DNA of 34,203 nt, taken from contig WFXL01000145.1 of NCBI GenBank assembly GCA_015490605.1, forward strand, positions 1-34,203, given 5' to 3'. The translations under genes and the position numbers were made by a program. The stretch's first letter is position 1; each line of letters opens with the position of its first letter. This DNA is from Rhodospirillales bacterium. Its GTDB lineage: Bacteria; Pseudomonadota; Alphaproteobacteria; Geminicoccales; Geminicoccaceae. This document shows positions 4,777-21,372 of the stretch, one piece after another. The notes under the pieces were generated by a model, which worked only from the letters and a program-made list of their open reading frames with translations, searched no databases and was not told the origin of the DNA.

Positions 4777-6186
4777 TCAGTTGAGCAGCTTCGCATCGAA
4801 GCCGGATGCGGTCACCGACAGAAGCGCTCGCTTGCCGCGCAGGCGGGTCTCGAGATAGACATCATGCCCCCAGAGCTCCCGCACATAGCCCAGGGTCTTT
4901 TCCGCGTGAGTCATGTCCAGATCGCGCCCGTCGTGTTCGTGCACCAGATAGAGGGCGCGGCGGCCGCGATAGTCGGCGTCATGGATGCGGATCACCGGAA
5001 TGTTGCCGGTCCCCACCCGCCGCAGGAGCTCGCGCTTGACCTCCTCCCAATGGTCCTCGTCCGCCACCTTGGTCACCACCAGATGTTCGCCCCGCGGCCT
5101 GTAGGTGAACAGATCGAGCTCGCGCATGAGTTCCGGGGTGAGGAAGCGGCGCAGGAAGGAGACATCCCGGTCGACCTCGCGCACCTCGAACATCTTCTCC
5201 ACCCCGAAGCGCTGCTCGATGTCCCTCCAGACCACGAAGCCGATGTGATAAGGATTGAGGCTTCCGGGATGGGGGCACACCACCTGATTGTGGCGCACCA
5301 GGAACTCCAGATGGAGTGCCTGCGGCAGATCGAGACTGTGGAGGATACGGTGGTGCCAATAGCTGGCCCAACCTTCGTTCATGATCTTGGTCTCGATCTG
5401 GGGGATGAAGTAGCGCGCCTCCTCATCGACAATGGTGAGCAGGTCCTTCTGCCACTCCGCCAGCTGGGGATTGTGGTCGCGGATGAACAGCAGCAGGTCC
5501 TCGTCCGGCTCCAGCGGCAGCCGGTCGAGGTCGGGCTCCTCCGGCTCCTCGCGCCGGTGGATGGCGGCGAAGGGATCGGGCCTGGGGCGGTGGCGCTCCA
5601 GCAGCCGGCGCCGCTGTTCCGCGCGCGAGAGCCGGCGCAGGGCGAGATTGCGGCTGCGGTTGAAGGCCAGCGCATGGGCGGCATCCAGCACCCGTTCCAC
5701 CGCCTCGGCGCCGATGGAGGGGTCCTCGATGTAGGCGCGCACCCGATCCGCATGGGCCTTGAAGCGCGCGAGGGTCTGGCGGGCGTCGGTGGCCACGCGG
5801 AAATGGAAGTTGTTCTTGAAAAAGTCGTTGTGGCCGTAGACGTGGGCGATGGTGAGGATCTGCAGACATAGGCTGTTGTCCCGCATGAGATAGGCGAGAC
5901 AGGGATCGGAATTGATCACCAGTTCGTACGGCAGGCCCTGAACACCATAGTCGTACATGGTCTTGATCTGTTCGAAGGCCTTGCCGTAGCTCCAGTGGGG
6001 ATAGTGGGCCGGCATGCCGTGGTAGGCCATATAGCCCAGCATCGCCCGATGGTCGCAGATCTCGAACTCCTGCTCGTAGCAGTCGAGGCCGAATTCGGCC
6101 ACCTTTGCGCGGATGCGGGCGTCCCACGCCTCCAGTTCGGCCAGGGTCCATTCGCGCCCCTCACACCGCACCGCCACCTCGCTCAT
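4777..6186 (-). CDS. spoVR: SpoVR family protein
   Basis: The 469-residue protein is the full length of the SpoVR/YcgB family. Conserved blocks are FEICDHRAMLGYMAYHGMP, HWSYGKAFEQIKTMYDYGV, YELVINSDPCLAYLMRDN, HVYGHNDFFKNN, the NEGWASYWHHRILH region near residue 290, and HPGSLNPYHIGF. SpoVR was named from a Bacillus spore-cortex gene, but in proteobacteria it is nearly always linked to prkA and a DUF444 gene in stationary-phase or starvation responses, as here. Its ATG overlaps the stop of the DUF444 gene by 4 bases, so translation is probably coupled. The molecular activity is unknown. Confidence 0.95.
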   Translation of the reverse strand: MSEVAVRCEGREWTLAELEAWDARIRAKVAEFGLDCYEQEFEICDHRAMLGYMAYHGMPAHYPHWSYGKAFEQIKTMYDYGVQGLPYELVINSDPCLAYLMRDNSLCLQILTIAHVYGHNDFFKNNFHFRVATDARQTLARFKAHADRVRAYIEDPSIGAEAVERVLDAAHALAFNRSRNLALRRLSRAEQRRRLLERHRPRPDPFAAIHRREEPEEPDLDRLPLEPDEDLLLFIRDHNPQLAEWQKDLLTIVDEEARYFIPQIETKIMNEGWASYWHHRILHSLDLPQALHLEFLVRHNQVVCPHPGSLNPYHIGFVVWRDIEQRFGVEKMFEVREVDRDVSFLRRFLTPELMRELDLFTYRPRGEHLVVTKVADEDHWEEVKRELLRRVGTGNIPVIRIHDADYRGRRALYLVHEHDGRDLDMTHAEKTLGYVRELWGHDVYLETRLRGKRALLSVTASGFDAKLLN

Positions 6187-7373
6187 ACCCCCTCCGCCGG
6201 CTCGCGCTCGCGCGCCATGAAGGCCCGGAAGGCGGGCCAGATGTCCTCGCGGCGCTCGATCAGCACTGCCTGGAAGTTGTCCGCCCCGAGCTCGCGGAAG
6301 CGCTCCAGCATGGAGCTCTCATAATAGTGCGAGCCCATGGGCTTGATCTCGCCATAGCCGAACAGGTTGCACACCTGGCACAGCTCCCGCGCGGCCTGCA
6401 TGGCCTCGTCATTGTCGCTCTCGAAATTGTCGCCATCGGAGCAGTGGAAGGCGTAGATGTTCCAGTGGGCTGGATGGTAGCGGTCGTGGATGATCTCCAG
6501 TGCCTTGCGATAGCCCGAGGAGATCATCGTCCCGCCCGATTCGCCCCGGCGGAAGAATTCGTCCTCGGTGACCTCCTTGGCCTCGGTATGGTGGGCAATG
6601 AACACGATGTCGACGTTATTATACTTTGTGCAAACGAACTGGTACAGCAGAAAGAAGAAGCTCCGCGCGAGGTACTTCTTCAGCCGGTCCATCGACCCCG
6701 AGGTGTCCATGATGCAGATCACCACCGCATTGCTCTCCTCGCGCGGATCGGTGCGCAGGCGGCGGTAGACCAGATCGTCCCGGTGGAAGGGAAAGCGCGG
6801 CTCCTCCCCGCCCGGCGGCGCCAGGGCGGCGGTGCGGCCGGTGGCCACCTTGCGCTTGATGCGCTGAAGTGCGGTACGTCGGCGATCCAGATGCGCCCGC
6901 ACGCCCTGGCGGCGGTAGCCCTTCCGCCGCGCCACCCGCTCGGCGAGGACATTCTTGAGAATCTTGCGTTCGAGATCGGGCAGCTCGAGGTCCTCGAACA
7001 TGATGTCCACGAGTTCCTCGAGGGTGATCTCGGTCTCGTAGATGTCGCTGCCCGGCTGGTTGCCGGCCGGGCCGGGGCCACCCTGGCCCTGCTGGCCGGC
7101 GCGTCCCACCACCTGGCCGGGGCGGGTGTCGCCGCGCCCCTGCCCCACGCCGCCATCATTGTCGCCATAGACGAAGCGGTACTCCTTCACGCCCCGGATC
7201 GGCACCCGGATGATGCGGTCGCGATCGCGGCCGATGATGCTCTCCTCGGCGATGATGTCGGCGATATGGTCGCGGATCGCCCGCCGCAGCTTCTCCCGGT
7301 GGCGCTTGCGGTCACCGGCGCTGCGGTCGGAGCGGAGCGCATCGCTCTCGGAGAAGGGCCGGAAGACGGTCAC
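6183..7373 (-). CDS. YeaH/YhbH family protein (DUF444, VWA-like)
   Basis: The 396-residue middle gene of the prkA operon starts TVFRPFSESD, followed by a basic, charged segment (GDRKRHREKLRRAIRDHIAD) and a Gly-rich linker near residues 85-120. The C-terminal half is a von Willebrand A-like domain with the MIDAS string IMDTSGSMDRLKKYLARSFF. These proteins are thought to act with the PrkA kinase, but no substrate is settled. GTG 7373 is chosen because family members start at about this phrase and a G-rich ribosome-binding region (GAGGGGCGGGGG) lies in the 17-base gap after prkA. An earlier GTG at 7403 would overlap prkA. The 4-base overlap with spoVR suggests coupled translation. Confidence 0.93.
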   Translation of the reverse strand: MTVFRPFSESDALRSDRSAGDRKRHREKLRRAIRDHIADIIAEESIIGRDRDRIIRVPIRGVKEYRFVYGDNDGGVGQGRGDTRPGQVVGRAGQQGQGGPGPAGNQPGSDIYETEITLEELVDIMFEDLELPDLERKILKNVLAERVARRKGYRRQGVRAHLDRRRTALQRIKRKVATGRTAALAPPGGEEPRFPFHRDDLVYRRLRTDPREESNAVVICIMDTSGSMDRLKKYLARSFFFLLYQFVCTKYNNVDIVFIAHHTEAKEVTEDEFFRRGESGGTMISSGYRKALEIIHDRYHPAHWNIYAFHCSDGDNFESDNDEAMQAARELCQVCNLFGYGEIKPMGSHYYESSMLERFRELGADNFQAVLIERREDIWPAFRAFMAREREPAEGV

Positions 7374-7390
7374 CGCCGCACCCCCGCCCC

Positions 7391-9322
7391 TCAGTCGCGC
7401 CACAGATGGTTGGCGGCATATTTGAGGATGGTGTCGATGCTGGACTCGTCATAGCCCTGCTCGATGAGATTGCGCACCATGGCGTCGTACTTCTCCTTCT
7501 GTTCCTCATCGCGGGTACGCGCCTTGGTGACGATACGGCTGATCTCCCGCACCGAGCTCATGAGCTTGCGCTCGATGGCCTCCTTGAGGGGCTCGTAGGA
7601 CTCGTAGGAGATCTTCTCACCCCGGCGGGTGGCCGCCCACAGATAGGCGATCACCTCCTGCCGGAAGCCGTCGGCGGCAGGGCCGATGATGGCGATCTGC
7701 TCCTCGATGGACTTCAGAAAATCGACGTCAGGCTCCATCTCCTCGCTGGTGACCGGATCCTTGACCTTGGTGCGGGTCACATAGGCCTCGGCGTGGTCGA
7801 GATAGTTGTGGAACAGCGTCTCCGCCTGGTCGCGGAAGGAATAGACGAACGCCCGGGTGATGTCCTTCTCGAGCATCTCGAGATAGACCTTGTGGAGCGT
7901 ATCCTGGAGGAATTCCAGGTACTGGCGCTTGGTGTCGTCGGGCAGGTCGGCCTCCTTCACCATCTGCACCAGCGCCTCGCGCACATTGATGGGGTGGATG
8001 ACGCCGTCGTTCTGCGACAGGGCGGTATCGAGCGCCTTCATGATGAAGCGCGTGGAGATGCCGAACATGCCCTCACGCTTGGCGTCCTCCATCAGTTCCT
8101 GGGCGGTGAGGCGCTTGGGCCGGCCCTTCTCCAGCACCTCCTCGCCGTTGTAGATCTTGAGCTTGGTGAGGAGGTCGCACTTGGGGGTCGGCTCGAGGCG
8201 GGTGAGGATGGCGAACATGGAGGCGATCTCAAGGGTGTGGGGCGCAATGCGAGCGTTGAAACGCGCGCGCTTGAGGAATTTCTCGTAGATCTTGATCTCT
8301 TCCGACAGGCGGAGATTGTAGGGAACCTTGATCACCACGATGCGATCCAGGATCGCCTCGTTGGTGTGATCAGCCTTGAACTTCTGCCACTCGGCCTCGT
8401 TGCTGTGGGCGACGATGCAGCAGTCGACATAGACCGTTCCGTGGCGTCCGGGGGCGGGGATGAACTTCTCCTGGGTGGCGGTGATCATGGTGTGGAGGTA
8501 TTCGGTCTCGTTCTTGAAGACCTCGATGAACTCCACCAGCCCGCGATTGCCGGCGTTGAAGGCGCCGTTGAGCTCCAGCACCCGCGGATCATCCTCGGAG
8601 AAGCGGTCGAGCTTGGAGATGTCCACCGAGCCGATCAGCACCGAGGTGTCCTGATTGTTGGGATCCACCGGCGGCACCACGCCGATGCCGCGCCGCGCCC
8701 GGGCCGAGAAGCGCACCGTCCGCACCGGCACCTTCTCATATTCGCCGCGGAACTCCTCCTTAAGGCGGAACCGGCACACCGGACAGAGATCGCCCTCGAT
8801 CCGCACCCCCAGCATCTCCTCGAAGGCCGGCCGCAGATGGCGCGGGATCAGGTGCAGCGGCTCCTCATGCATGGGGCAGCCGTCGATGGCATAGAACGGC
8901 CCGAGCTCCTCGAGCCCCCGCTTGAGCCGTTCCACCAGCGAGCTCTTGCCCGAGCCCACCGGCCCCATGAGGTAGAGCACTTGGCGGCTCTCCTCGCCGC
9001 CCATGGCCGCGGCGTGGAAGTAGCGGACGATCTTCTCCAGCGTCCGCTCCATGCCGAAGAATTCATCCTTGAAGAAATGATACACCTTCACCGGACGGTC
9101 GCCGAACAGCCGCTTCGCCCGCGGATCGGCCTCACGGTCGAGTTCGGTGACACCGGCACGCATGATCATGTCATAGAGACGCTGGTGCGCCAGCGCCGCC
9201 ACGCCGGGGTCGGCCTTGACGATCTCGAGATAGTCGAGCAGGGTGCCGCGCCATTCCTCCTGCTGGCGTGCGGCACGGTCCTGCTCGATGAGGGCGGCGA
9301 AGTCGAGCTTGTCTCCGGGCAT
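7391..9322 (-). CDS. prkA: PrkA-type serine protein kinase / AAA+ ATPase
   Basis: The 643-residue product covers the full family length. The N-terminal AAA-like part carries the Walker A motif GPVGSGKSS at about residues 120-128. It is followed by CPMHEEPLHLIP, GDLCPVCRFRL, the PVDPNNQDTSVLIGSVDISK block and CIVAHSNEAEW. The C-terminal PrkA domain includes the DVDFLKSIEEQ segment. PrkA (YeaG in Escherichia coli) is a cytoplasmic kinase or ATPase induced on starvation. As first gene of prkA-DUF444-spoVR it defines a three-gene stress operon. ATG 9322 is preceded by AGGTGAGGACAG. The promoter should lie in the upstream gene-free region, but no site there is convincing to me. Confidence 0.96.
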   Translation of the reverse strand: MPGDKLDFAALIEQDRAARQQEEWRGTLLDYLEIVKADPGVAALAHQRLYDMIMRAGVTELDREADPRAKRLFGDRPVKVYHFFKDEFFGMERTLEKIVRYFHAAAMGGEESRQVLYLMGPVGSGKSSLVERLKRGLEELGPFYAIDGCPMHEEPLHLIPRHLRPAFEEMLGVRIEGDLCPVCRFRLKEEFRGEYEKVPVRTVRFSARARRGIGVVPPVDPNNQDTSVLIGSVDISKLDRFSEDDPRVLELNGAFNAGNRGLVEFIEVFKNETEYLHTMITATQEKFIPAPGRHGTVYVDCCIVAHSNEAEWQKFKADHTNEAILDRIVVIKVPYNLRLSEEIKIYEKFLKRARFNARIAPHTLEIASMFAILTRLEPTPKCDLLTKLKIYNGEEVLEKGRPKRLTAQELMEDAKREGMFGISTRFIMKALDTALSQNDGVIHPINVREALVQMVKEADLPDDTKRQYLEFLQDTLHKVYLEMLEKDITRAFVYSFRDQAETLFHNYLDHAEAYVTRTKVKDPVTSEEMEPDVDFLKSIEEQIAIIGPAADGFRQEVIAYLWAATRRGEKISYESYEPLKEAIERKLMSSVREISRIVTKARTRDEEQKEKYDAMVRNLIEQGYDESSIDTILKYAANHLWRD

Positions 9323-9734
9323 CTGTCCTCACCTCACTGGCGACCCTGCGGATCCCGGCATGCGGGAGCGAGAGTCCCCGATCGAGTCCAGTTAACCATG
9401 AATCGCGAAGGGTGGAAAGCCCGATCCTTCGGCCCGGAGCGACAATTATCGGGCATTCGACAAAATCGTGAAGACAATTGTGGGAAGACTGTGATGATCG
9501 CACCCGTGGGACGGCGCCTTCTCAGGGCCACACCCGGCAGTGCTCCCGGGTTGCCACGCTCCCCTGCCCTCCCTGTGCGATGGATCGATCGAGGCGCACT
9601 CGCCCGCTCGCGACGGTCCCGAGGATGGCGCACGGGCCGCCCGGTTCCCACGACGTTCCAAGTCGCTATGATACGGAATTCCCCCCTAGGGTCAACGGCA
9701 TACCCGCGGTCGGCGCGGACCCTGGCGGGCGGCC
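9323..9734. other. Gene-free divergent region between prkA and the sugar-transferase gene
   Basis: About 410 bases without a supported gene separate prkA (leftward) from the rightward sugar-transferase promoter. An AT-richer island at about 9440-9485 carries AATTGTC-like strings repeated on the minus strand (two AATTGTC and one TTTTGTC) and a palindromic ACAATTGT. It is a plausible control region for prkA, but I cannot name a regulator. A TATGAT at 9668-9673 has only a weak upstream partner. Frames open through this area lack ribosome-binding sites and family resemblance. Confidence 0.5.
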
Positions 9735-10480: not shown

Positions 10481-11637
10481 GCCACTGGCCCCAGTTCGCC
10501 GAGGATGAGATCGAGGCGGCGGTGCGGGTGCTGCGCTCGGGCCGGGTCAATGCCTGGACCGGCGAGGAGGTGGCCGCCTTCGAGCGCGAGTTCGCCGCCT
10601 TCCTCGGCTGCCGCCGGGCGGTGGCGCTGGCCAACGGCACCCTGGCGCTGGAGCTGGCGCTGCTGGCTCTCGGCATCGGCCCCGGCGATCGGGTGGTGGT
10701 CACCCCCCGCAGCTTCTTCGCCTCGGCCTCGGCCATCGTGCGGGTGGGCGCCGAGCCGGTGTTCGCCGATGTCGACCGCGACTCCCAGAACCTCACCGCC
10801 GAGACCATCGCCGCGGTGCTGGACCGGCGGGTGCGGGCGCTGGTGTGCGTCCATCTGGCCGGCTGGCCCTGCGCCATGGGGCCGATCCTGGAGCTGGCCG
10901 AGGCCCACGGGCTCGCCGTGGTGGAGGACTGTGCCCAGGCCCACGGTGCCGCCATCGACGGCCGGCGGGTGGGGACCTTCGGCCATCTCGCCGCCTGGTC
11001 CTTCTGTCAGGACAAGATCCTCACCACCGGTGGCGAGGGCGGCATGGTCACCACCGACGACGAGGACCTCTACCGCCGGGTGTGGTCCCTCAAGGACCAT
11101 GGCAAGGGCTATGAGGCGGTGTTCACACGCCGCCATCCGCCGGGTTTCCGCTGGCTGCACGAGCGCTTTGGCACCAACGCCCGCCTGACCGAAATGCAGG
11201 CCGCCATCGGACGTCGCCAGCTCATGAAACTGCCCGCCTGGCTCGAACGGCGGGCGCACTTCGCTGGCCTCTACCGCGAGATCCTGGGCGGCCTTGCGGC
11301 GGTGCGGCTGCCCTGGCCGCCCGTCGGCGTGCGCCATGCCTGGTACAAATTCTATCTGTTCGTGCGCCCCGAGGCGCTCGCGGGCGGCTGGAGTCGCGAT
11401 CGCATCCTGGTGGAGGCCCAGGCCCGCGGCGTGCCCTGTTTCACCGGCTCCTGCCCCGAGATCTACCGCGAGCGCGCCTTTGACGGCACGCCCTTCCGCC
11501 CCCCGCAGCCGCTCCCCGTGGCGCGCGAGCTCGGGGAGACCAGCCTGATGCTGGAAGTGCACCCCACCCTCACGGAGGCGGAGGTGGTGCGCCGCGGCGA
11601 GATCCTGCGGGCGCTGCTGCAAGAGGCCACGCGCTGA
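10477..11637 (+). CDS. DegT/DnrJ/EryC1/StrS family PLP aminotransferase
   Basis: The 386-residue enzyme is expected to convert a 4-keto nucleotide sugar to the amino sugar using PLP. It opens with the family phrase SGRVNAWTGEEVAAFEREFA, has VEDCAQAHGA as the cofactor-contact Asp region near residue 150, and AWSFCQDKILTTGGEGGM with the Schiff-base lysine at about K180. The SFCQDK context is typical of PglE/WecE-like nucleotide-sugar aminotransferases. It starts with GTG overlapping the sugar-transferase stop. No dehydratase or acetyltransferase is nearby, so the exact sugar cannot be given. The gene ends 10 bases from the convergent terminase gene of the phage cassette. Confidence 0.9.
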   Translation: MSHWPQFAEDEIEAAVRVLRSGRVNAWTGEEVAAFEREFAAFLGCRRAVALANGTLALELALLALGIGPGDRVVVTPRSFFASASAIVRVGAEPVFADVDRDSQNLTAETIAAVLDRRVRALVCVHLAGWPCAMGPILELAEAHGLAVVEDCAQAHGAAIDGRRVGTFGHLAAWSFCQDKILTTGGEGGMVTTDDEDLYRRVWSLKDHGKGYEAVFTRRHPPGFRWLHERFGTNARLTEMQAAIGRRQLMKLPAWLERRAHFAGLYREILGGLAAVRLPWPPVGVRHAWYKFYLFVRPEALAGGWSRDRILVEAQARGVPCFTGSCPEIYRERAFDGTPFRPPQPLPVARELGETSLMLEVHPTLTEAEVVRRGEILRALLQEATR

Positions 11638-11653
11638 GACATCCCGCTCAGCG
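11632..11653. terminator. Stem-loop spanning two convergent stop codons
   Basis: CGCTGAG at 11632-11638 pairs with CTCAGCG at 11647-11653 around an 8-base loop. It covers the stop codons of both the aminotransferase (rightward) and the terminase (leftward) genes. There is no T-run on either side, so any termination would be factor-assisted; the structure may instead protect both 3' ends. Confidence 0.4.
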
Positions 11654-13204
11654 GCGCAGTGGCCGGAAGGTGCGGGTGGCCGGGCGCCAGTCGGGCGCCG
11701 GCCGGGGGCGGCGCGGCAGGACGCGAAGGCGCATGGGTTCGGCCAACAGACAGCCGGCCACCGCATCGAGGCCATCGTCGCGCCCCTGGGCGCCGGGGCG
11801 CCATTCCCGCATCTCGTTCACAAAGGGTGTGGCCAGCACCCGCCGGTGGACATGCAGCCGCCGGCTTGCCAGCAGCGGGTCGAAGGCCTCGAGGATACGC
11901 CGGTCCTTGGGGATGTGGCTGTGGTGCTCGCGCACCACCGTGGGGGCGCCGGTGCGCTGCAGTTCGCGGCGCAGGGTGGCCGGCAGGAAACGGCCGAGGC
12001 CGTTCACCTCCACCCGGATCACCGGCACCGCGTGGGCCGTGCAGAAGGCCGCCACCTCGCGGCACATCACCGAGGCCTCGTCGTCCTCCGGCGTGCGCGG
12101 AGTGGAATCGAGATAGCGCAGGTCGTGGAGGAAATAGTGGCCCTCGGCGTCGGTGAAGACCACCGCCACCACGCTGGCGTCACCCTTCTCCGGGCGGCCG
12201 ATGGCCGGATCCCAGAAGGCGGTGGCCGAGACCATGCGGCGGCCGGCGATGGTCAGCACCAGCTCGCCATTGGCCTCGTACATCTCCGCCTCGTCGTCAT
12301 AGGTCACCAGCTGGGCGGGATCGAGCCGCAGCTCTTCAAGCGGCACCGGCTGCAGCAGCATCTGGCTGCGAAAGCGTGCCGGTCCGCTCTCGCGCTCGAT
12401 GCGGGCGATCTCCTCCGTGGGAAAGCGCTCGGGCCACAGGCTCCGGCCCTGTTCGTCGCGGATCGGCAGCACCAGCCGCCGGTAGCCGTCGAGGAACGGC
12501 CGTTCCTCCCCCAGCTCCGGCCGCGGTTCGGCCGCATAGATGCTGTGGTAGTGATGCGGCGTGCCCACATAGAGGATGGTGCCGCCGGGACACAGGACGA
12601 AGGGCAGCTCCGCCAGGCGGGCGCGCAGTTCGGCGCGCTTGGTGGGGGTGTCGCAGGTGTTGGGCACCTCCACATCGTCGCAGACGATCACATCCGCCCG
12701 GGCGCCGGTGATATTGGCGAACAGCCCGCGGGCCATCACCGAGGGATCGCGCAGATCCCGCCGACGGCGGACGGTGATCTGATCCTGGGCCCAGCCGCCC
12801 GGGCCCTCAGGGCGGATGGCGGCGCACAGCGGGTGGCGCTCGATGATACGGCGGATGTTGCGGGTCATCCGCGTGGCAAGGCCGTGTTCGGCGGCGAACA
12901 CCAGGATCCGCAGATCGGGGTTGCGCTGCAGCAGCCAGGCGCAAAACAGCCCCACCAGGGTGGACTTGCCGGCATTGCGGAAGACCATCAGCAAAAGCCG
13001 CCGGTGGCCCTCGTGCCAGCTGGTCTCGAGCCAGTCGGCGATGCGCCGGTGGAGGGCGGGCGTCGACTGGCGCTGGATCACGTTCCAGAGGTAGACGAAG
13101 GCGCCGAAACCGAGCTCGCGGGTATCCAGCGGGAGCTCCGGCCGGCGCGGCGGCCGGCAGAGGGACTCCAGCTGGCCATAGGCGAGCGGGGGGATCTCCG
13201 CCAT
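11648..13204 (-). CDS. Phage terminase large subunit
   Basis: The 518-residue protein is the predicted DNA-packaging motor. The ATPase half has a Walker A-like FRNAGKST at residues 75-82 and Walker B VIVCDD at about 172-177, followed by GTILYVGTPHHYHS, the coupling-motif region. The nuclease half keeps acidic positions in AFWDPAIGRPEKGDAS, RVEVNGLGRF and GRDDGLDAVAGCL. All expected catalytic segments are present, so it looks functional. ATG 13204 follows GTGAGG and lies 8 bases after the preceding helical-protein gene. A longer open frame upstream runs through the neighbouring genes and is not coding. As in T7 (gene 19), the terminase is last in the cluster, but no small-terminase gene is recognisable. 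Confidence 0.9.
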   Translation of the reverse strand: MAEIPPLAYGQLESLCRPPRRPELPLDTRELGFGAFVYLWNVIQRQSTPALHRRIADWLETSWHEGHRRLLLMVFRNAGKSTLVGLFCAWLLQRNPDLRILVFAAEHGLATRMTRNIRRIIERHPLCAAIRPEGPGGWAQDQITVRRRRDLRDPSVMARGLFANITGARADVIVCDDVEVPNTCDTPTKRAELRARLAELPFVLCPGGTILYVGTPHHYHSIYAAEPRPELGEERPFLDGYRRLVLPIRDEQGRSLWPERFPTEEIARIERESGPARFRSQMLLQPVPLEELRLDPAQLVTYDDEAEMYEANGELVLTIAGRRMVSATAFWDPAIGRPEKGDASVVAVVFTDAEGHYFLHDLRYLDSTPRTPEDDEASVMCREVAAFCTAHAVPVIRVEVNGLGRFLPATLRRELQRTGAPTVVREHHSHIPKDRRILEAFDPLLASRRLHVHRRVLATPFVNEMREWRPGAQGRDDGLDAVAGCLLAEPMRLRVLPRRPRPAPDWRPATRTFRPLRR

Positions 13205-13211
13205 CGGGGCC

Positions 13212-13643
13212 TCACCCCAGAAGACTGCGACGGCGCACGAGGCCCCGCACCAGCCCCTCGGCCCGCGACAGCCAGCGTTCACTGCGGGCCAGCAGGTCGC
13301 GGCGGGCACGACGGCGGTAGAGATCGTCGACCGCCTCAAGCCGCTGGGCCAGGCGCGCGCGATCGGCCTCCATCTCGGCCTCGCTGCGGCGCTCGAGACC
13401 CCGGAGGACGGCATCGAAGGAGCTGCCGGTGGCCACCCCGGCAGCGCCCGCGCGCGCACGGGTGGCCGCCAGCCGCTCGAGCAGCTTTTCGCGCGCCTTG
13501 CGCTCCTCTTCCGCAAGACGCGCCAGAAGCTCGCGCCGGCGTTCGCGCTTTTCCCGCGCGAGCTCACGGCGGCGGCGGCGATAGGCCTCGCTCTGAAGGG
13601 CGAGTTCGAGTCCGAGGGTGGCAAGTGTACCCAGTCCCGACAT
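13212..13643 (-). CDS. Small charged helical phage protein (possible internal virion protein)
   Basis: The 143-residue protein has a short hydrophobic start (SGLGTLATLGLELAL) followed by a long Arg/Glu/Lys-rich segment from about residue 20 to 130 that is almost certainly alpha-helical, with coiled-coil-like repeats such as RLAEEERKAREKLLERLAA. It occupies the place between the tail nozzle and terminase where T7 carries internal virion proteins, so a role as a short gp14-like internal or ejection component is inferred from position only. ATG 13643 lies 6 bases after the nozzle stop. No sequence family is recognised. It is much smaller than the set of large ejection proteins it would have to replace. 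Confidence 0.75.
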   Translation of the reverse strand: MSGLGTLATLGLELALQSEAYRRRRRELAREKRERRRELLARLAEEERKAREKLLERLAATRARAGAAGVATGSSFDAVLRGLERRSEAEMEADRARLAQRLEAVDDLYRRRARRDLLARSERWLSRAEGLVRGLVRRRSLLG

Positions 13644-13649
13644 GGGCCT

Positions 13650-15545
13650 TCAGACCTCCACTTCGAGGGTGACGGAGAGCAGGGTGAAGGGGCGCGGATC
13701 GTCGTCCTGCAGGCGGAAGGCCGGCGGATCCTCGCCGCGACGCCAGCCGAGCGCCCGCAGGCTGACATCGCCCGTATGGGGTACTGCCGGAAGCGGGACG
13801 GCCCCGGCACCGCGGCCGAGATCCACGGCGAGACGGTAGGTCTCCAGCAGCCGCAAGGTCACCCGCACCGGCCGCCACGGCCGATCGGCCGCCACCCCGG
13901 CGCCGGCATCGGTGGGCGCAAAGGGGATGAGCTCATGGGTGAAGCCGTGGCCGATCAGGAGCTCGCCCACCGGCTCGGCAAAGCCCAGGCTGCCGCTCTG
14001 GATCACGAGCGGCCCCAGGGGCTCGCCATCCACCACGAGGCGCACGGTGCGGCCGATCCAGCGATCGAGGCCGGTGAAGGTGGTGGCCGGCGGCGAGGCC
14101 TGATAGCGGATGGCGCCATCGAGCCCGACGGCCGGATCCAGTCGTTCGAGGGCGGGCGTGCCGGCGCGTTCCACCAGCAGATAGACCCGACCGTCGAGGG
14201 TGAGGGCATCGCGCACGAGCCCGTCGGTGGCATGCGAGGCCCAGGCCACCACATTGGCGTTGCGGTCGACGGTCAGCGACGCAAGGCGGCCGTCGCCGCG
14301 CACGAGCCACAGGCGCCGGCCCACCGGCTCGAAGGCCAGCGCGCGGGGCTCTTCCACCAGGTGGGCGGCGAGCATGGCGAGATCCGCCGCCTGCCACGCC
14401 TGTTCCGTGTCGGTATAGACGAATTCCCGCAGATCGCGGCCGCTGCGGCCGACGAACAGCACCGCACCGTCCACCTCCACCGGCCGTGCACGCCGCTCGG
14501 AGGGGCTGCCGATGCGGGTCTGGCGGGCCACCTCCACCCGGGTGGGGGTGATGGGATCGCCGTGGACCACCCATTCGCCGGCGGAGGTGAAGACGAACAG
14601 CCGGCGGCCCGCCACCAGATGACGCACCAGCTCGCGCTCCTCGCCCACGAGGCGGAAGGCCACGGCCTCATCATCGAGGCCGGTGCCCACATCGAAGTCG
14701 AACGGCCGCCCGCTGCGCGACAGCCACACGAAGTCGGGGAGATCGCGGGTGCCCCCCACCACCAGCCGGTTCTGATGGACCGCGACGGTGGCGGGCCAGC
14801 CGCGGGCGGGCGAGAAGGCCTGTTCGGCCCAGTCGTCGGTGCCCACGAGCCCGGCGGGATCCTGCGGACTCTCCACCTCCACCTGGGTGGCGCTGATGAC
14901 ATTGAAGATGCGGGCGAAGAGCGGGCCGATGCGGAGCCAAGTGGCTACGTGCTGGGCGGTGAAGACGGGCGCGCTGGCGGTGACGGTGAAGGTCCAGCCA
15001 CCACCGCTCGTTTGAACATTGGCAAGGCCCAGCCGCACCCCTTGCGGGGCGATGCGCTCGAAGGGGACGAACGGGCGCGAGAGGGGATCGCCGGGATCCT
15101 CGCGGCGGAAGGGCCAGGGTTCGAACACCCAGCCGAAGGGCGGATCGAACACCAGCCGATGGGGCTCCACCTCGGGATGCACCAGCAGTAGCGCATCGTC
15201 CCAGACGGCGTGGTCGAGGGTGGCGATGCGCGCGGACGTATAGCCCGCAAAGGCGATCTGCTGATCCAGAGTGCCGTCGGGATAGAGCAGGTCGAGCCCC
15301 GTGGGCCGAAGTGCTACCAGCCGGTCGCCGGCACTGCGGGGGAACGGCAGGATGCGCTCAGCCGCCGGCAGATCCACAAGATGCCAGCTGCCCGGTCGGC
15401 GACGCAGCCCGCCGGTGACCTCGGGGACGAGATTGTGCAGACGCCGCGCACCCTCGCGCCGCGCCCGCAGGTCGAAGCGGCCGGCCAGCCGCGGGTCGAG
15501 TTCGCCCGCGGCAAAGCTGGTCTGGAAGGCGAGCCGGCGGGTCAT
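13650..15545 (-). CDS. Tail nozzle / tail tubular protein B-like (T7 gp12-type)
   Basis: The 631-residue protein begins FQTSFAAGELDPRLAGRFDL, followed by ARRLHNLVPEVTGGLRRRPG, the characteristic opening of phage nozzle (stabilisation) proteins in short-tailed phages. The middle is beta-rich and includes WPATVAVHQNRLVVGGTRDL, FDFDVGTGLDDEAVAF and FTSAGEWVVHG, typical of the propeller-like tail-tube family. An IFNVISATQVEVES stretch near residue 215 resembles the small FCCH-type repeat often annotated in these proteins. It should form the distal tail tube below the adaptor. Its ATG overlaps the adaptor stop by 4 bases. No lesion is visible. Confidence 0.86.
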   Translation of the reverse strand: MTRRLAFQTSFAAGELDPRLAGRFDLRARREGARRLHNLVPEVTGGLRRRPGSWHLVDLPAAERILPFPRSAGDRLVALRPTGLDLLYPDGTLDQQIAFAGYTSARIATLDHAVWDDALLLVHPEVEPHRLVFDPPFGWVFEPWPFRREDPGDPLSRPFVPFERIAPQGVRLGLANVQTSGGGWTFTVTASAPVFTAQHVATWLRIGPLFARIFNVISATQVEVESPQDPAGLVGTDDWAEQAFSPARGWPATVAVHQNRLVVGGTRDLPDFVWLSRSGRPFDFDVGTGLDDEAVAFRLVGEERELVRHLVAGRRLFVFTSAGEWVVHGDPITPTRVEVARQTRIGSPSERRARPVEVDGAVLFVGRSGRDLREFVYTDTEQAWQAADLAMLAAHLVEEPRALAFEPVGRRLWLVRGDGRLASLTVDRNANVVAWASHATDGLVRDALTLDGRVYLLVERAGTPALERLDPAVGLDGAIRYQASPPATTFTGLDRWIGRTVRLVVDGEPLGPLVIQSGSLGFAEPVGELLIGHGFTHELIPFAPTDAGAGVAADRPWRPVRVTLRLLETYRLAVDLGRGAGAVPLPAVPHTGDVSLRALGWRRGEDPPAFRLQDDDPRPFTLLSVTLEVEV

Positions 15546-16111
15546 GAGCGCCTCGCGCGGATCAGGGTGAAGTCCTCGACCCGCCGCGGGGTCGCCTGCT
15601 GGCTGTCGATCAGCCGTGCGAGCTTGAGCTCGGCCTCGGCCAGCCGACGCAGGGTGCGGGCGCGGCTCTCGGCCTCGGTGAGCGGCAGGGCGAACTCGGC
15701 CGCCAGCCGGGCGATGAGGGCATTGGCGAAGAAGGCGGGAAAGGCGCTCTCCGGCACCCGGCGCTGATAGGTGAGGGTCACCCGGGGTGCATCGGTCACC
15801 AGCCGGTCGCCGCGGATGCGGAACACCAGCCCGCGGCCGCGGCCGCCGGTGCCGGCGGAGATGCTCCGCAGCATGTCGCTTGGGAGGAAATAGGCATAGG
15901 CGAAGTCGCCCGGCCGGGTGGCATCGTCGCGCACCAGCTCCGCCTGGGCGACGGTGAAGGACCAGGGATGGGCGGCGAGCAGCGCATCGCGCACCATGGG
16001 GTAGAGCTGGCCCGCCACCTCGGCCTCGGCGCGGGGCTCGGAGAAGGAGGCGATCCCCGGGATGCCGAGCTTGAGGAGGGCCTTGGAGCAGAGTTCGACG
16101 TCGGTGTACAT
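15542..16111 (-). CDS. Tail adaptor / tail tubular protein A-like (T7 gp11-type)
   Basis: The 189-residue protein starts MYTDVELCSKALLKLGIPGI and continues EAEVAGQLYPMVRDALLAAHPWSF after an acidic stretch, the standard opening of gp11-type adaptor proteins joining portal to nozzle. FAYAYFLPSDMLR and the C-terminal FANALIARLAAEFALPLTEA helix are also family-like. ATG 16111 has GGAG upstream; the longer upstream open frame runs over the neighbouring gene and hairpin and is rejected. It follows the hairpin at 16157-16185, so it may be expressed at a lower level than capsid. Its stop overlaps the nozzle start. Confidence 0.88.
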   Translation of the reverse strand: MYTDVELCSKALLKLGIPGIASFSEPRAEAEVAGQLYPMVRDALLAAHPWSFTVAQAELVRDDATRPGDFAYAYFLPSDMLRSISAGTGGRGRGLVFRIRGDRLVTDAPRVTLTYQRRVPESAFPAFFANALIARLAAEFALPLTEAESRARTLRRLAEAELKLARLIDSQQATPRRVEDFTLIRARRS

Positions 16112-16156
16112 GGCTCCGTTCCGCCAGGTGGCCGGGGGAGAGCGCCGGCGGGCGCG

Positions 16157-16185
16157 GGGGCCGGGGTCGGTCGGACCCCGGCCCC
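16157..16185 (-). terminator. 12-bp GC hairpin after the capsid genes
   Basis: GGGGCCGGGGTC at 16157-16168 pairs perfectly with GACCCCGGCCCC at 16174-16185 around a 5-base loop, 6 bases past the stop of the cement-position gene. It lacks a T-run. By analogy with capsid-downstream partial terminators in phages, it probably lowers transcription of the tail genes or protects the capsid mRNA 3' end. Confidence 0.65.
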
Positions 16186-16191
16186 GCAGGC

Positions 16192-16461
16192 TCAGTCGGC
16201 GTTGGTGCTGCCGAAGGGCGTGAGGTTGGTGACGTCGACGCTGGTGCCGTCGTTCGCCACCACCACCATCACACCATGGGAGGGCGCGCTGTCGATGGCG
16301 GCGTTGACGAAGATGAAGTCGCCCACCCGCAGCATCCGCGCTGCCTCGTTGAAGTAACCGAGATCGTCCACTTCCGACGGCAGGTCGGAAGTGCGGTAGT
16401 GCCACAGGGTGAAGCCGTTGGCGTAGGTCAGCGCGCTGAGGTTCTTGGGATCGTATGCCAT
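16192..16461 (-). CDS. Small phage protein in the cement/decoration position
   Basis: The 89-residue protein (MAYDPKNLSALTYANGF start, then LWHYRTSD, LGYFNEAARMLRVGDFIFV) belongs to a group of short proteins found directly after the capsid gene in many phages. The body looks like a small beta-barrel domain with the turn MLRVGDFIFVNAA. Bordetella phage BPP-1 has its cement protein next to its capsid gene, so a capsid-stabilising role is inferred from position and size. It begins 2 bases after the capsid stop and is followed by a strong hairpin. Confidence 0.8.
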   Translation of the reverse strand: MAYDPKNLSALTYANGFTLWHYRTSDLPSEVDDLGYFNEAARMLRVGDFIFVNAAIDSAPSHGVMVVVANDGTSVDVTNLTPFGSTNAD

Positions 16462-16463
16462 GA

Positions 16464-17282
16464 TCAGGCCTCCAGGCAGGGCATGCGGACGACACCGGCG
16501 GGATCGATCAGACCGGCACCCTGGGACATCATGTTCGAGACGAAGTAGGCGGCGCGGTCACCGTGCCAGGTGATGTCGGTGGTGATGTCCTGGCCGACGG
16601 CGTGACCCACGGCGCTCTTGTGGTACCAGAAGCACTGGCGCACGCCGGCCTCGAGCGGCAGCCCCGAGTGCGGGATCCACAGGGTGCCGAGCCAGTACTT
16701 CGCCTGGGTGCCGCGCCAGGGGAGATCGTTGTCGCCGACGAACTCGGCATTGGCGAACTCGGGCAGGTTGAGCAGCTCCGACCACTGCTTCCAGCCGATC
16801 ACCGCATAGCGCTGGCCATCGTCGGGGACGTCGTTGGCGCCGAGGATCTCGAACGCCTCCAGCACCTTCTCCTTGGTGAGGCCGGTGGTGGCATCGCCGG
16901 CGACGTTGGTGGTCTGGGCGAGGGCCTCGACGATGAGCTCGTCGGTCTTGCGCCCGAGGGCGAAGGCGCCGGCATTGGCCAGCACCTGGCGCTCGTCGAT
17001 GTTGGTCTTGAGCTCATCCAGCCGGTCGACCCACTCGCCGGCGTAATAGTCCACCAGGAACACCTCGACGGCGCTGAAGTCCACATTCATCACCGGCACC
17101 ATGCCGTGGCGCGCCTTGGTGGCGGCGGAACCGCGGCCGACCCGCTGGAACACGGTGGAGCTGCCCCGCACGCCGTTCTTGACGCGGACCGTGGGGCGCA
17201 GCTTCGAGCCCTGGCGCTGGTAGGCCTCGTGGACCTCGCGCTCGAACTGCTTGATGAAGGCCTGTTCGATGGTGATGCTCAT
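16464..17282 (-). CDS. Major capsid protein
   Basis: The 272-residue protein starts MSITIEQAFIKQFEREVHEA, then QRQGSKLRPTVRVKNGVRG, the opening of the capsid family found in BPP-1-like and related short-tailed phages. MNVDFSAVEVFLVDYYAGEW and IDERQVLANAGAFALGRKTD are the conserved middle region, followed by WKQWSELLNLPEFANAEFVG. It is predicted to form an HK97-fold shell. ATG 17282 is chosen because GGAG lies at proper spacing and members start here; an upstream ATG at 17336 gives an unrelated extension. The gene order scaffold-capsid-cement supports the call. Confidence 0.9.
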   Translation of the reverse strand: MSITIEQAFIKQFEREVHEAYQRQGSKLRPTVRVKNGVRGSSTVFQRVGRGSAATKARHGMVPVMNVDFSAVEVFLVDYYAGEWVDRLDELKTNIDERQVLANAGAFALGRKTDELIVEALAQTTNVAGDATTGLTKEKVLEAFEILGANDVPDDGQRYAVIGWKQWSELLNLPEFANAEFVGDNDLPWRGTQAKYWLGTLWIPHSGLPLEAGVRQCFWYHKSAVGHAVGQDITTDITWHGDRAAYFVSNMMSQGAGLIDPAGVVRMPCLEA

Positions 17283-17399
17283 GACAGCTCCGATCTCCGT
17301 TCGGGGTGAGCGGGAGGGTTCGGACCGGTTGTCCACATGGGGCCGATCCGTGGGGGAGAGCCCGCGGACCGTCGGGCGGTTGCCCGCGGGATCGCGGCG

Positions 17400-18380
17400 T
17401 CAGTCGCCGTAGAGCCGGCGGAAGCCCTCGGTGACCTGCGCCACGAATTCGGGGTCGCGATCGCGCCAGTAGCGGGGATCGCGCATCATCTCGACCAGCT
17501 GGTCCTCATCCGGCACGAGCCCGCCGCCCTCGGCCTCGGCGAACAGCTCGGGCTCCTCCGCCAGCGCCATGCGATGCAGCGCCAGCACGCCCTCATAGCT
17601 GGAACTCAGGGCCTCGGCGGTGGCGGGATCGAGCCGCCGCTGGGCGAAGTCGCGGAGCTCCCGGGCGATCGCCTCGAAGCGCTCGCGCCCGCCGAAATGG
17701 GCCTCGAGCCGCTCGCGCTCGCGGCGGGCGGTGGCCTCGGCCACCACCTCGGCCACCGCCGGCAGCAGCCGCTCGGCGGCGAGCTCATAGACCAGCTTCG
17801 CCTGGTCGCGGGTAAAGCCGGCCTCGTGCAGCCGCCGGTCAAGCTCGGGATCGCGTTCGATCAGCGGATGGGGCGAGTCGAAGTCATAGTCCTCCGGCCG
17901 CGCGGGCCAGCCCAGCGCCCTAAGGAGCCGCCGGCGCCCGGCCTCATCCTCGGGCCCCTCGGGCAGGCTCACCATGCGGCCGAGCTTGCGCTCGAGCTCG
18001 GCGTAGGATTCAAGCAGGGCGTCCACCCGCACCTCACCCCGCGCCGCATCCCAGAACTTCTCCGGTACGTGTGGCGGGCGCGGGCGGGGCATGGCCTCCC
18101 CGGGTTCGGTGCCTTCACTTTCGGCCGCATCGGCCTCGGTCACCGCGGCAGCGTCGGCTGCGGCGGCGGCATCGGCGGCGTCACCGGCGGGCATCCCGCC
18201 CTCGCCTCCGTCCGCCGGCGCGGTGGCTGCGGTCGCATCGGCGGTGCCGGTGTTCGCGTCGGCACCGGCGGTGGCCGGGGCGGTGTCCGTTGCGAACGGC
18301 TCGGTTGCCGGCATGCCGGAGGGCACGTCCCGTTCGGGCTCGGGGCTGGGCAGGTCGGTCGAGGATGGCAGGACGGTCAT
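17400..18380 (-). CDS. Capsid scaffolding protein
   Basis: The 326-residue protein lies directly before the capsid gene. Residues 1-100 are low-complexity, rich in Ala, Asp, Thr and Pro and probably disordered. The conserved part begins VPEKFWDAARGEVRVDALLE, then YAELERKLGRMVSLPEG and GWPARPEDYDFDSPHP, a string typical of T7-like and BPP-1-like scaffolds. The C-terminal half is charged and helical and ends in WRDRDPEFVAQVTEGFRRLY. It should guide capsid assembly and then leave the shell. ATG 18380 is chosen with GAGGAG 6 bases upstream; the longer frame invades the Bbp19-like gene. Confidence 0.86.
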   Translation of the reverse strand: MTVLPSSTDLPSPEPERDVPSGMPATEPFATDTAPATAGADANTGTADATAATAPADGGEGGMPAGDAADAAAAADAAAVTEADAAESEGTEPGEAMPRPRPPHVPEKFWDAARGEVRVDALLESYAELERKLGRMVSLPEGPEDEAGRRRLLRALGWPARPEDYDFDSPHPLIERDPELDRRLHEAGFTRDQAKLVYELAAERLLPAVAEVVAEATARRERERLEAHFGGRERFEAIARELRDFAQRRLDPATAEALSSSYEGVLALHRMALAEEPELFAEAEGGGLVPDEDQLVEMMRDPRYWRDRDPEFVAQVTEGFRRLYGD

Positions 18381-18390
18381 GGCAGGCTCC

Positions 18391-18657
18391 TCACTGACGG
18401 CGCTCGCGGGCCTGGCGGACGAGGCTCTCGATGTGGGCGACGACGCTGCGCTGGCCCTCCACGTGGCGCAGCACCGCATCCGGGGCGGTGGGCGGCACCC
18501 GCCGGCCGAGAAAGGCGCGGCGCAGATAGTCCAGCACGCGGCGGCCGGCGGGGGTGTCGAAACAGGCGGCGAACAGCTCCACCAGCTCGTCCGACGCCTG
18601 GCGCGCGGCGGCGGGATCCAGGCGGCTCCAGCCGCGGCGGGAGGTGCGGGGCCTCAT
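18391..18657 (-). CDS. Bbp19-like phage protein
   Basis: The 88-residue protein carries the motif CFDTPAGRRVLDYLRRAFLG near residue 33 and EGQRSVVAHIESLVR near the end. This resembles the small Bbp19 family of Bordetella phage BPP-1, located between portal and scaffold. Function is unknown; its fixed place suggests a role in procapsid assembly. ATG 18657 overlaps the portal stop by 4 bases, so it is translationally coupled, and the scaffold start follows 10 bases after its stop. Confidence 0.78.
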   Translation of the reverse strand: MRPRTSRRGWSRLDPAAARQASDELVELFAACFDTPAGRRVLDYLRRAFLGRRVPPTAPDAVLRHVEGQRSVVAHIESLVRQARERRQ

Positions 18658-20150
18658 GGCCGCTCCTCCCGGCCCACCGCCTGGGCCAACAGTGTCAGCG
18701 GGTTACCGTCGCGCACGAACTCCGCCGGCACACCCAGCCGTTCGGCGAGCCAGCGCACCGCCGCCCCCACCTCCACCAGCGGGCGGGCGACCTCACCGAG
18801 ACGCTCGACGGTCTCGAGCCACAGCAACACATTGCGCACATCCTGACGTGCCTGTTCACGGGCGAGCGGTGTGCGGAAGGCGACCTCGACGGTGTGGCCG
18901 TCCACCGGCAGGTCGGGAATGGCGCCGCGGCGGCGGAGGATGTGGACCGCCCGATCCAGAAGCGGGCGCAACAGTTCGCCCTCGAGCCGGCCATAGATGG
19001 CACCCAGCAGGCGGGCCATCTCGGCGCTGCGCTCCAGCACCTCGGTGGCGGTCATGCGCGGGCCGTCCACCGGCCCCAGCCGGTCCACCAGCAGCGCATG
19101 ACGGATGCGGGCGCGGAGATCCGACAGCACCAGCTCGGAGACATCAAAGCGGCCGGGGGTCTCGAGCGGGGTGAGGCCGGCGGAGCCCGGCGCCTTGGGG
19201 ATGATGCTGCCGGGCGAGAGGTCGATGTTGGCCGGATTGAGCACGCCATCGTCCTCGGCCAGCCAGATGCCGGTGACGGCGATGGAGGCGTTCTGCAGGA
19301 TCAGCTCCACCACCTTGTTGGCGGTGCGGATGTCGGGCAGCGCCGTCATCACCGGCGAACGGCCGTAGGTCTCGCCGGCGGCCTTGAGCCAGCGGAAGGT
19401 GAGGAAGGGGGAGTGGGCGAAACGGCCGCGGGCGAGCACCACCGCGGTGGGAAGACCGGCACTGCGGGCGGGGATGAAGGCGGCATAGTGCCAGCCGTCC
19501 TCGGCCGCCAGCACCGCCTCCACCAGCTCCGCCGGCCGCTCGGGCTCCTCCTCCATGCGCGCCATCAGCTCCGGCGGCAACTCGGCAGCCGGAAAGCGCT
19601 CGCGCAACTGACCCCAGCTGGGACTGGTGCGGCGGAACTGCCGGGTGATGCGGCCGTCGGCATCGCCCAGCACGAACATCTCCGTCACCGGCACGGCGGT
19701 GAAGCGGAAGGCCGAAGGTGCCCCCAGCGGCGCCTCACGGAACAGCAGGGTGGCGGTGCCGGCGGTGACCAGGTCCAGAAGACACTGGTGCAGCTCCACA
19801 TAGAGGTTGGAGCGGGCGAAATGGCCCTCGATCACTCGGGTGGCGCGCTCCAGTTCGGGCGCGAGGGCGGCGCGGGTGGCCTCGTCCAGGTCGGTGCCGG
19901 GGGTGAGCTCGAACCAGCGCGACCAGGGCGGGGCGAGCTCGGCCAAGAGACTGGCGGCGAGCTGTTCGGTGGCATCGCAGGCGGTGCCGTCGAACAGCTC
20001 GTCTTGGGTGCGCACCGCCTCCCCGAGGCGGCCGGCACGCACCGGGGCGGCATAGGCGAAACATTCCTGCCAGAGGGGTTCCCAGCTCTTACGGCGGCGG
20101 CTGGCCTCGGCGAACAGATGGTCGAGGGTGGCCGGGGACGGCGCGGACAT
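18654..20150 (-). CDS. Phage portal (head-to-tail connector) protein
   Basis: The 498-residue protein is the first structural gene of the cluster. It has the T7-type portal opening SWEPLWQECFAYAAPVR, then TQDELFDGTACDATEQLAAS, SLLAELAPPWSRWFELTPG and, further on, FLTFRWLKAAGETYGRSPVM, the diagnostic RW.....ETYGRSP signature. NKVVELILQNASIAVTGIW and MTATEVLERSAEM follow. It forms the dodecameric ring through which the terminase loads DNA. ATG 20150 has GGAG upstream and sits 59 bases from the neighbouring small gene, behind its own predicted promoter; the longer open frame upstream is not coding. Confidence 0.9.
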   Translation of the reverse strand: MSAPSPATLDHLFAEASRRRKSWEPLWQECFAYAAPVRAGRLGEAVRTQDELFDGTACDATEQLAASLLAELAPPWSRWFELTPGTDLDEATRAALAPELERATRVIEGHFARSNLYVELHQCLLDLVTAGTATLLFREAPLGAPSAFRFTAVPVTEMFVLGDADGRITRQFRRTSPSWGQLRERFPAAELPPELMARMEEEPERPAELVEAVLAAEDGWHYAAFIPARSAGLPTAVVLARGRFAHSPFLTFRWLKAAGETYGRSPVMTALPDIRTANKVVELILQNASIAVTGIWLAEDDGVLNPANIDLSPGSIIPKAPGSAGLTPLETPGRFDVSELVLSDLRARIRHALLVDRLGPVDGPRMTATEVLERSAEMARLLGAIYGRLEGELLRPLLDRAVHILRRRGAIPDLPVDGHTVEVAFRTPLAREQARQDVRNVLLWLETVERLGEVARPLVEVGAAVRWLAERLGVPAEFVRDGNPLTLLAQAVGREERP

Positions 20151-20184
20151 TCGCGGTCTCCGCTCAGGACTTTGTGCGGGTGTA

Positions 20185-20635: not shown

Positions 20636-20664
20636 GCGCATGTTCCTGCGTCTCTGGGATAGGG

Positions 20665-20693
20665 ATCCTTGACTCGGCAGGTTTTCCTGTCAA
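20665..20693 (-). promoter_or_regulatory. Leftward promoter of the small His/Cys gene
   Basis: TTGACA at 20693-20688 (minus strand), 17-base spacer, then AAGGAT at 20670-20665. The -35 is consensus and the -10 poor. It gives a leader of about 20 bases before ATG 20635. It overlaps the dyad at 20671-20696, so repressor binding would block it. Confidence 0.45.
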
Positions 20694-20696
20694 GTC
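20671..20696. promoter_or_regulatory. Putative repressor operator (26-bp dyad)
   Basis: GACTCGGCAGG-TTTT-CCTGTCAAGTC is an interrupted palindrome centred at 20683.5 with 9 of 13 half-site positions symmetric, including the inner CAGG/CCTG and outer GACT/AGTC. It overlaps a leftward -35 (TTGACA) and a rightward TTGACT at 20669-20674, the position expected for a divergent repressor to control both sides. Confidence 0.5.
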
Positions 20697-20736
20697 TGCC
20701 GGCGACCACGGAAGGGGTTCGGGAGCGGGGCGCACC

Positions 20737-21372
20737 ATGCTGACGCACGATCAGATCTGGCGCGGAATCGACCGACTCGCGGAGCGTCACGGCCTCTCCC
20801 CGTCCGCCCTCGCCCGCAAGGCCGGCCTTGATCCCACCACCTTCAACCGCAGCAAGCGCCGCACCCGCGAGGGCAAGTTGCGCTGGCCCAGCACCGAGAG
20901 CCTCGCCAAGGTGCTGCAGGCCACCGGCACCAGCTTCCAGGAGTTCGTCGCCCTCATCGAGGACAATCCCGAGCCGCCCGCGACCCCACCTAGGCGACTG
21001 CGGGCGCGCCGGCTGGGCGAGCTCGAGCCGCTGGTGCATCTGGATGCCAGCGGCTTTCCCCTGGGCGAGTGGGACGAGATCGACTTCCCCCGGATCGAGG
21101 ATCCCGACGCCTACGGCATCGAACTTGATCGCGACGTGGCCCCACCCTGCTATCGCACCGGCGATCTGGTGCTGGTGTCACCCCGCCAGAGCGTGCGCCG
21201 CGCCGATCGGGTGCTGCTGTGCACCCGCGACGGCGAGCTGCTGTTCGGCGTGCTTGATCGCCGCACCCTCACCCGGGTGGTGCTGGATCCCCTCGACCCG
21301 CGCGGCCAGCCGCGCGATCTGCCGGCCGAGGAGCTGGCCTGGCTCGCCCGCATCGTGATGGTCTCCCAGTAA
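20737..21372 (+). CDS. LexA/CI-like repressor with degenerate S24 peptidase domain
   Basis: The 211-residue regulator has an N-terminal helix-turn-helix (LAERHGLSPSALARKAGLD, then TTFNRSKR) and the LRWPSTESLAKVLQATG string of an alphaproteobacterial LexA-related family. The C-terminal half keeps the S24 fold outline (YRTGDLVLVSP, DRVLLCTRDGELL, LAWLARIVMVSQ). Against the usual GDSMxPxYRxGD, this protein reads RDVAPPCYRTGD, so the nucleophile Ser is Val134. The usual Lys in GEVMAK is Gly171. The Ala-Gly cleavage site is also not evident (LDASGF). It should dimerise and bind DNA but not self-cleave with RecA. It diverges from the phage genes over the predicted operator. Confidence 0.88.
   Translation: MLTHDQIWRGIDRLAERHGLSPSALARKAGLDPTTFNRSKRRTREGKLRWPSTESLAKVLQATGTSFQEFVALIEDNPEPPATPPRRLRARRLGELEPLVHLDASGFPLGEWDEIDFPRIEDPDAYGIELDRDVAPPCYRTGDLVLVSPRQSVRRADRVLLCTRDGELLFGVLDRRTLTRVVLDPLDPRGQPRDLPAEELAWLARIVMVSQ

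Follow-up and report, generated by a model that had tools for sequence, protein, structure and literature searches.

A probable RogA-family repressor lacking its self-cleavage parts faces a T7-like, host-inherited structural cassette in Geminicoccaceae

What does a LexA/CI-like repressor hold in check, and how is it released, when the parts needed for its own cleavage are missing? The question is posed by an open reading frame in the 34,203-nucleotide stretch of Geminicoccaceae DNA analysed here (the window; Table 1). The frame is confirmed as a genuine gene for an HTH + S24 repressor of the LexA/CI fold. Pfam finds HTH_26 at residues 11-76 (8.6e-5) and Peptidase_S24 (PF00717) at residues 137-207 (1.8e-5), both above the curated cut-off, while NCBIfam offers no model for the protein. 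The AlphaFold model has a mean pLDDT of 92.5, with an N-terminal domain of Cro/C1 type and a C-terminal domain that adopts the LexA fold (Z 12.3 against Escherichia coli LexA, 116 residues aligned, rmsd 2.6). Domain content and fold thus agree with the original prediction, which had named a LexA/CI-like repressor.

Self-cleaving S24 repressors carry a catalytic Ser-Lys dyad and an Ala-Gly cleavage site, and the window repressor has neither. In relatives with a preserved active site the sequence is LEISGDSMxP, GEVMAK and, at the cleavage site, AQAG; the corresponding stretches in the window are IELDRDVAPP, GELLFGVL and RRLGELEPLVHLDASGFP, the last without an Ala-Gly pair. Independently, a profile of the family matched to the lambda CI chains of the PDB pairs V/L134 with the NSM serine of CI and Gly171 with position Lys192, which is Ala in the K192A chain. 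The replacements first proposed from the sequence, Val134 for the serine and Gly171 for the lysine, are therefore borne out by both alignments and the missing cleavage site by the alignment with relatives, and the structure model supplies the expected fold. A Ser/Lys pair elsewhere, the finding that would have told against the proposal, is not conserved within the family C-domain. Since the dyad occurs in none of the 27 full-length members of the window's own family and the gene is still under selection (dN/dS 0.23 against the closest congener, 0.23-0.45 against relatives), its absence is not a matter of chance or sequencing error.

These comparisons support the loss of self-cleavage in the window repressor, from which it follows soundly that SOS would be unable to act through its self-cleavage. 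SOS itself is present, as the host genome encodes RecA and a LexA whose GDSM, Lys and Ala-Gly are all intact. Both the retained LexA fold and this intact host LexA would suit a repressor that cleaves itself through other residues, or is cut in trans by LexA or another S24 protein. With no substitute dyad conserved in the family and the cleavage site gone as well, such residual cleavage is highly improbable.

The loss can be placed among the homologs. In 175 aligned sequences the cleavage parts are mostly retained jointly or missing jointly: Ser, Lys and Ala-Gly are all kept in 117, all missing in 42, and 16 are intermediate. As 117 of the 175 keep all three, the ancestor very probably had the complete set. 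The repressor tree requires at least 13 state changes, and losses also occur outside the window's family. Within that family the members form one clade, which together with the uniform lack of the dyad marks the loss as old and lineage-wide. Pairwise identity after loss is 0.48 in the C-domain vs 0.72 in the HTH, compared with 0.61 vs 0.63 in intact members; as judged from these identities, constraint on the C-domain relative to the HTH is lower after loss. Species of Azospirillum carry a repressor with intact cleavage parts, presumably cleavable, along with the gene cassette described below.

Across a divergent intergenic region the repressor faces phage-derived head, tail and packaging genes of T7 type (Table 1). 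No self-replication genes lie beside them, which is the make-up of a gene transfer agent (GTA). In the window ORFs scanned, small ORFs being covered in part, neither an integrase nor a replication gene was recognised, so that the gene content of a temperate phage, in which these accompany the structural genes, is not found. Nor was a tail fibre or lysis gene identified in the window. A search for T7 RNA polymerase in the family gave no match, but its control was also silent. The cassette is equally far from the RcGTA type: the marker PF13547 is absent from genome G000, and the major capsid protein (MCP) belongs to PF19821 and the terminase (TerL) to the T7 type, with no HK97-type head. Host genes flank the cassette, prkA-DUF444-spoVR on one side and a polyprenyl synthase on the other. 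The prkA-DUF444-spoVR set (4777-9322, minus strand) directly adjoins it, and a congener (G002) has the same neighbours.

Table 1. Coordinates of the repressor, the divergent region and the cassette in the window
Feature	Coordinates	Strand	Evidence or remark
Unassigned ORF at cassette end, 485 aa	10180..11637	-	upstream end uncertain; congener G002 gave the sole match found (63%)
T7-type terminase large subunit (TerL)	11648..13120	-	NF033889 1.9e-123; phrog_38
Possible gp14-like internal virion protein (weak)	13212..13643	-	PF24072 E 0.001, below curated cut-off
Tail protein, gp12-like	13650..15545	-	phrog_376 2.1e-98
Tail tube protein, gp11-like	15542..16495	-	phrog_394 7.9e-42
Major capsid protein (MCP)	16464..17336	-	PF19821 9.1e-82; phrog_3437
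Scaffold (T7 capsid assembly protein family)	17400..18479	-	PF05396 3.5e-11
T7-type portal / head-tail connector	18654..20180	-	PF12236 1.5e-120
Conserved first cassette gene, 143 aa	20210..20641	-	invariant His37, Asp52, Cys104; best fold match cysteine peptidase 3kw0
Divergent intergenic region, repressor/cassette, 95 bp	20642..20736		no GTTC-N7-GTTC SOS box
Operator-like site GGCA-GGTT-TTCC	20676..20687		one mismatch vs RogA operator GGAA-N4-TTCC (PMC9632790)
Operator-like site GGAA-GGGG-TTCG	20710..20721		one mismatch vs RogA operator GGAA-N4-TTCC (PMC9632790)
Repressor gene, 211 aa: HTH (residues 1-76) + catalysis-dead S24/LexA-fold domain (residues 84-211)	20737..21372	+	ORF call, Pfam, alignment, model
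Val134 codon, catalytic Ser position (GDSM in relatives)	21136..21138	+	alignment with relatives, lambda CI profile
Gly171 codon, catalytic Lys position (GEVMAK in relatives)	21247..21249	+	alignment with relatives, lambda CI profile

The fold match of the 143-aa protein (Z 7.5, 114 aligned, rmsd 3.6) is suggestive only of a cysteine-hydrolase-like protein; Foldseek alone returned no significant match. In G328 a pectate-lyase-like tailspike candidate and a cell wall hydrolase lie near TerL (L135:1248-6589, 10639-10995), and an additional HTH protein stands between capsid and scaffold.

The missing integrase, replication and clear lysis genes in the window, like the lower conservation of the C-domain than of the HTH, are what a decaying prophage would leave, namely the remnants of a temperate podovirus whose repressor lost its active site by drift. 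Against such a remnant stand open frames and purifying selection throughout the cassette. Between two congeners dN/dS is 0.11 for the MCP and 0.17 for both portal and TerL, with 0.16 for host ispB. The same gene order also recurs across many families. Of the 31 genomes of the window's family, the capsid gene is present in 27 and the repressor, whole or partial, in 29; most carry one linked copy, mostly in the same divergent order. Decay confined to the window's genome is ruled out by this family-wide conservation.

The distribution of the cassette was followed in a class-wide sample of 387 alphaproteobacterial genomes at least 90% complete. MCP identity is bimodal across them, 64 genomes having a match at 54-100% and the remainder one at or below 40%. 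Repressor and cassette occur together in 56 of the 64 cassette genomes (20.8 expected, p=1e-23), no genome combines the cassette with the RcGTA marker PF13547 (6.6 expected, p=0.001), and 23 of 40 genomes with that marker have the repressor (13 expected, p=6e-4); all three p-values are optimistic, because genomes are not independent samples. Of the 126 genomes with the repressor, 47 have neither the cassette nor RcGTA.

The trees of the cassette proteins follow that of the host. Mantel correlations with rpoB are 0.64 for the MCP, 0.77 for the portal, 0.62 for TerL and 0.54 for the repressor; none of 5000 permutations reached the MCP and portal values, and distances in the MCP tree are about those of RpoB. 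Together with the dN/dS values this is the descent with the host expected of a GTA. In some genomes the cassette is split, its parts lying 68 kb (G077) or about 155 kb (G181) apart or on two contigs (G389). In G006 the capsid gene stands alone with an open frame 1.9 Mb away, and the cassette has no room for a capsid gene between scaffold and gp11. Split loci combined with descent alongside rpoB are an organisation not expected of an ordinary prophage. On this comparative evidence, what the repressor faces is no prophage but a T7-like structural cassette, widely conserved and passed on vertically. With the intact G006 gene so far displaced and the cassette kept even in genomes of 0.9-1.2 Mb, a prophage remnant is very unlikely. 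In G045 the capsid gene lies in two pieces on separate contigs (residues 18-236 and 217-289), and one of the matched stretches contains stop codons, which points to a broken gene, an insertion or an assembly fault.

A functional temperate or satellite phage, with its replication genes elsewhere and an antirepressor in control, has a precedent. The CI repressor of phage 186 is non-cleavable and is removed by the Tum antirepressor; like the window repressor it has an S24-fold C-domain without self-cleavage, and that domain matches the window model (Z 9.8, 100 aligned, rmsd 2.7). A 34 kb Pelagibacter podovirus has a related MCP (48% identity), which points the same way. Phage 186 is, however, a true temperate phage, and no antirepressor was identified beside the window repressor. 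The fixed single copy, the rpoB-like descent and the split loci also speak against a phage; IMG/VR matches are mostly short contigs, mostly below 20 kb, and there was no plasmid match. A working phage is accordingly an unlikely reading of the locus.

A probable relative of the window repressor is found in Caulobacter. RogA (CCNA_00080) is a protein of 213 aa with HTH and S24 domains from which key cleavage residues are missing. Its targets are the GTA activators gafYZ, which it represses at a promoter with two GGAA-N4-TTCC repeats, and homologs have been reported in Rhodospirillales (PMC9632790). The window repressor resembles it, by the published description, in length (211 vs 213 aa), in the HTH + S24-like layout without catalytic residues, in an inverted repeat of the form GGAA-N4-TTCC at the target and in its tie to a GTA-type element. 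The two differ in that RogA acts at a distance, through gafYZ, on an RcGTA-type (HK97-like) cluster, whereas the window repressor adjoins a T7-like cassette. In this comparison by description, operator and layout, the window repressor family is a probable part of the RogA family. A catalysis-dead S24 repressor is as such already known, from RogA and 186 CI. A profile search for Caulobacter RogA in 12 RcGTA-bearing genomes returned only other S24 proteins with intact residues.

With at most one mismatch, GGAA-N4-TTCC has 47 occurrences in the 102 upstream regions of the repressor family; shuffled sequences give 5.8 (12 at most) and random windows 5.4. The hexamer TTCCTA has 76 occurrences there vs 5.7. 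The RogA-type operator is thus enriched family-wide, and the two sites in the window are imperfect copies of it. In two genomes (G118 and G284) the sole exact tandem pair of GGAA-N4-TTCC genome-wide is at the repressor promoter. A search for tandem operators before gafYZ gave no clear match; three genomes had one, the two just named, at the repressor promoter, and G257. The divergent promoter has no SOS box, a single match at 9644 being at chance level, and no consensus sigma-70 promoter or terminator was found between 20560 and 20800. At the capsid loci of split genomes (L127, L130, L132, L133) the 900 bp preceding the capsid gene contain no RogA-type operator. A second regulator is therefore probably at work at these loci.

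The locus is best explained, with good though incomplete confidence, as a host-inherited, GTA-like element of podovirus origin under a RogA-like repressor that is uncoupled from SOS, so that release would come from a non-SOS signal. A dimer of the repressor, formed via the LexA-fold C-domain, would sit on the divergent region and block the repressor's own gene as well as the T7-like cassette. The cassette, as its genes suggest, most likely makes gene-transfer-agent-like particles that would package host DNA. Most relatives, Azospirillum included, have the cleavage machinery intact, so DNA damage could open the element in them. In the window's family the SOS switch would have been lost once, at the base of the family, and as the SOS link is cut, release would need another signal. 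Such a host signal or partner could be turnover of the repressor, an antirepressor or an activator. A parallel may be seen in Caulobacter, in which RogA is catalysis-dead and GTA production occurs in stationary phase.

The function of a particle is not readable from sequence, and the same dead repressor might instead govern a domesticated particle that carries no genes, for instance a device for killing or for lysis. Selection nevertheless maintains portal, scaffold, MCP and TerL alike, so DNA packaging itself is probably what is selected; a non-carrier particle is improbable. For a GTA-like element, several known systems offer comparison. Like the type I GTAs RcGTA and CcGTA, the cassette combines vertically inherited head-tail genes, a slowly evolving capsid, host control and sometimes split loci. 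In contrast to them it derives from T7-like and not HK97-like stock, lacks PF13547 and never occurs with them in the sample. FpGTA of Faecalibacterium (2026) is presented, in the accessible part of its report, as a GTA-like element that is the first of podovirus-like morphology (PMC12946183). It shares with the cassette a podovirus-like make-up, and is about 10 kb long, in two separated operons, and near-universal in its group; the likeness drawn here is one of make-up. Unlike the cassette, it belongs to Firmicutes, and that part of the report mentions no RogA-like repressor (PMC12946183).

The formal classification of GTAs recognizes two alphaproteobacterial families (types I and II) and one from a spirochete (PMC9662315), and no account of a T7-like alphaproteobacterial GTA was found in the open-access literature. 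The cassette has a fair chance of being a new GTA type. A wider proposal falls somewhat short of an even chance: a third alphaproteobacterial type, of T7-like podovirus origin, may stand in for RcGTA across much of the class, with a self-cleaving, SOS-coupled repressor of the RogA family as ancestral switch and the SOS link cut in whole lineages by the three-part loss. If true, Caulobacter RogA would be the same repressor family re-used on a different GTA. GTAs transfer host DNA at high rates, and their known origins go back to only a few phage stocks; here a podovirus-derived element occurs, and never alongside RcGTA, in about one sixth (64 of 387) of the alphaproteobacterial genomes sampled. 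Tied to a repressor that seems cleavable in certain lineages but dead in others, the element would allow direct tests of how such elements are wired to DNA damage and why that link is severed.

Azospirillum offers a candidate setting. Mitomycin C is reported to release particles with about 10 kb of DNA, judged to be GTAs, from A. lipoferum strains and Azospirillum sp. B510; the particle DNA of A. lipoferum 4B consists of random host fragments, and the authors assign the particle genes to RcGTA-like regions (Boyer 2008, cited in PMC3899980; PMC3899980). The genus has the T7-like cassette together with a repressor whose cleavage parts are intact, although the genes were assigned elsewhere and the particle-yielding strains are not those examined here. 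The cassette is a candidate gene set for these particles, whose genes have only been guessed so far.

Several loci depart from the common repressor layout. In three genomes of one family (G303, G366, G234; loci L137, L149, L155) an ORF of 303-310 aa joins the repressor HTH (57-62% identity) to an unrelated C-terminal region, the S24 domain seemingly swapped out entirely while the locus still lies beside the cassette. Four genomes of about 0.9 Mb (G397, G093, G337, G192; loci L165, L166, L167, L171) keep a rearranged cassette, and at three of these loci the full repressor gives way to short homologs, about 81 aa long, that consist of the HTH only. Alphaproteobacterial-type homologs also appear in records labelled Mycobacterium sp. 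KBS0706 (L486, NZ_VCCH02000039) and Anaerolineae MAG (L465), which are probably contaminated or mislabelled assemblies.
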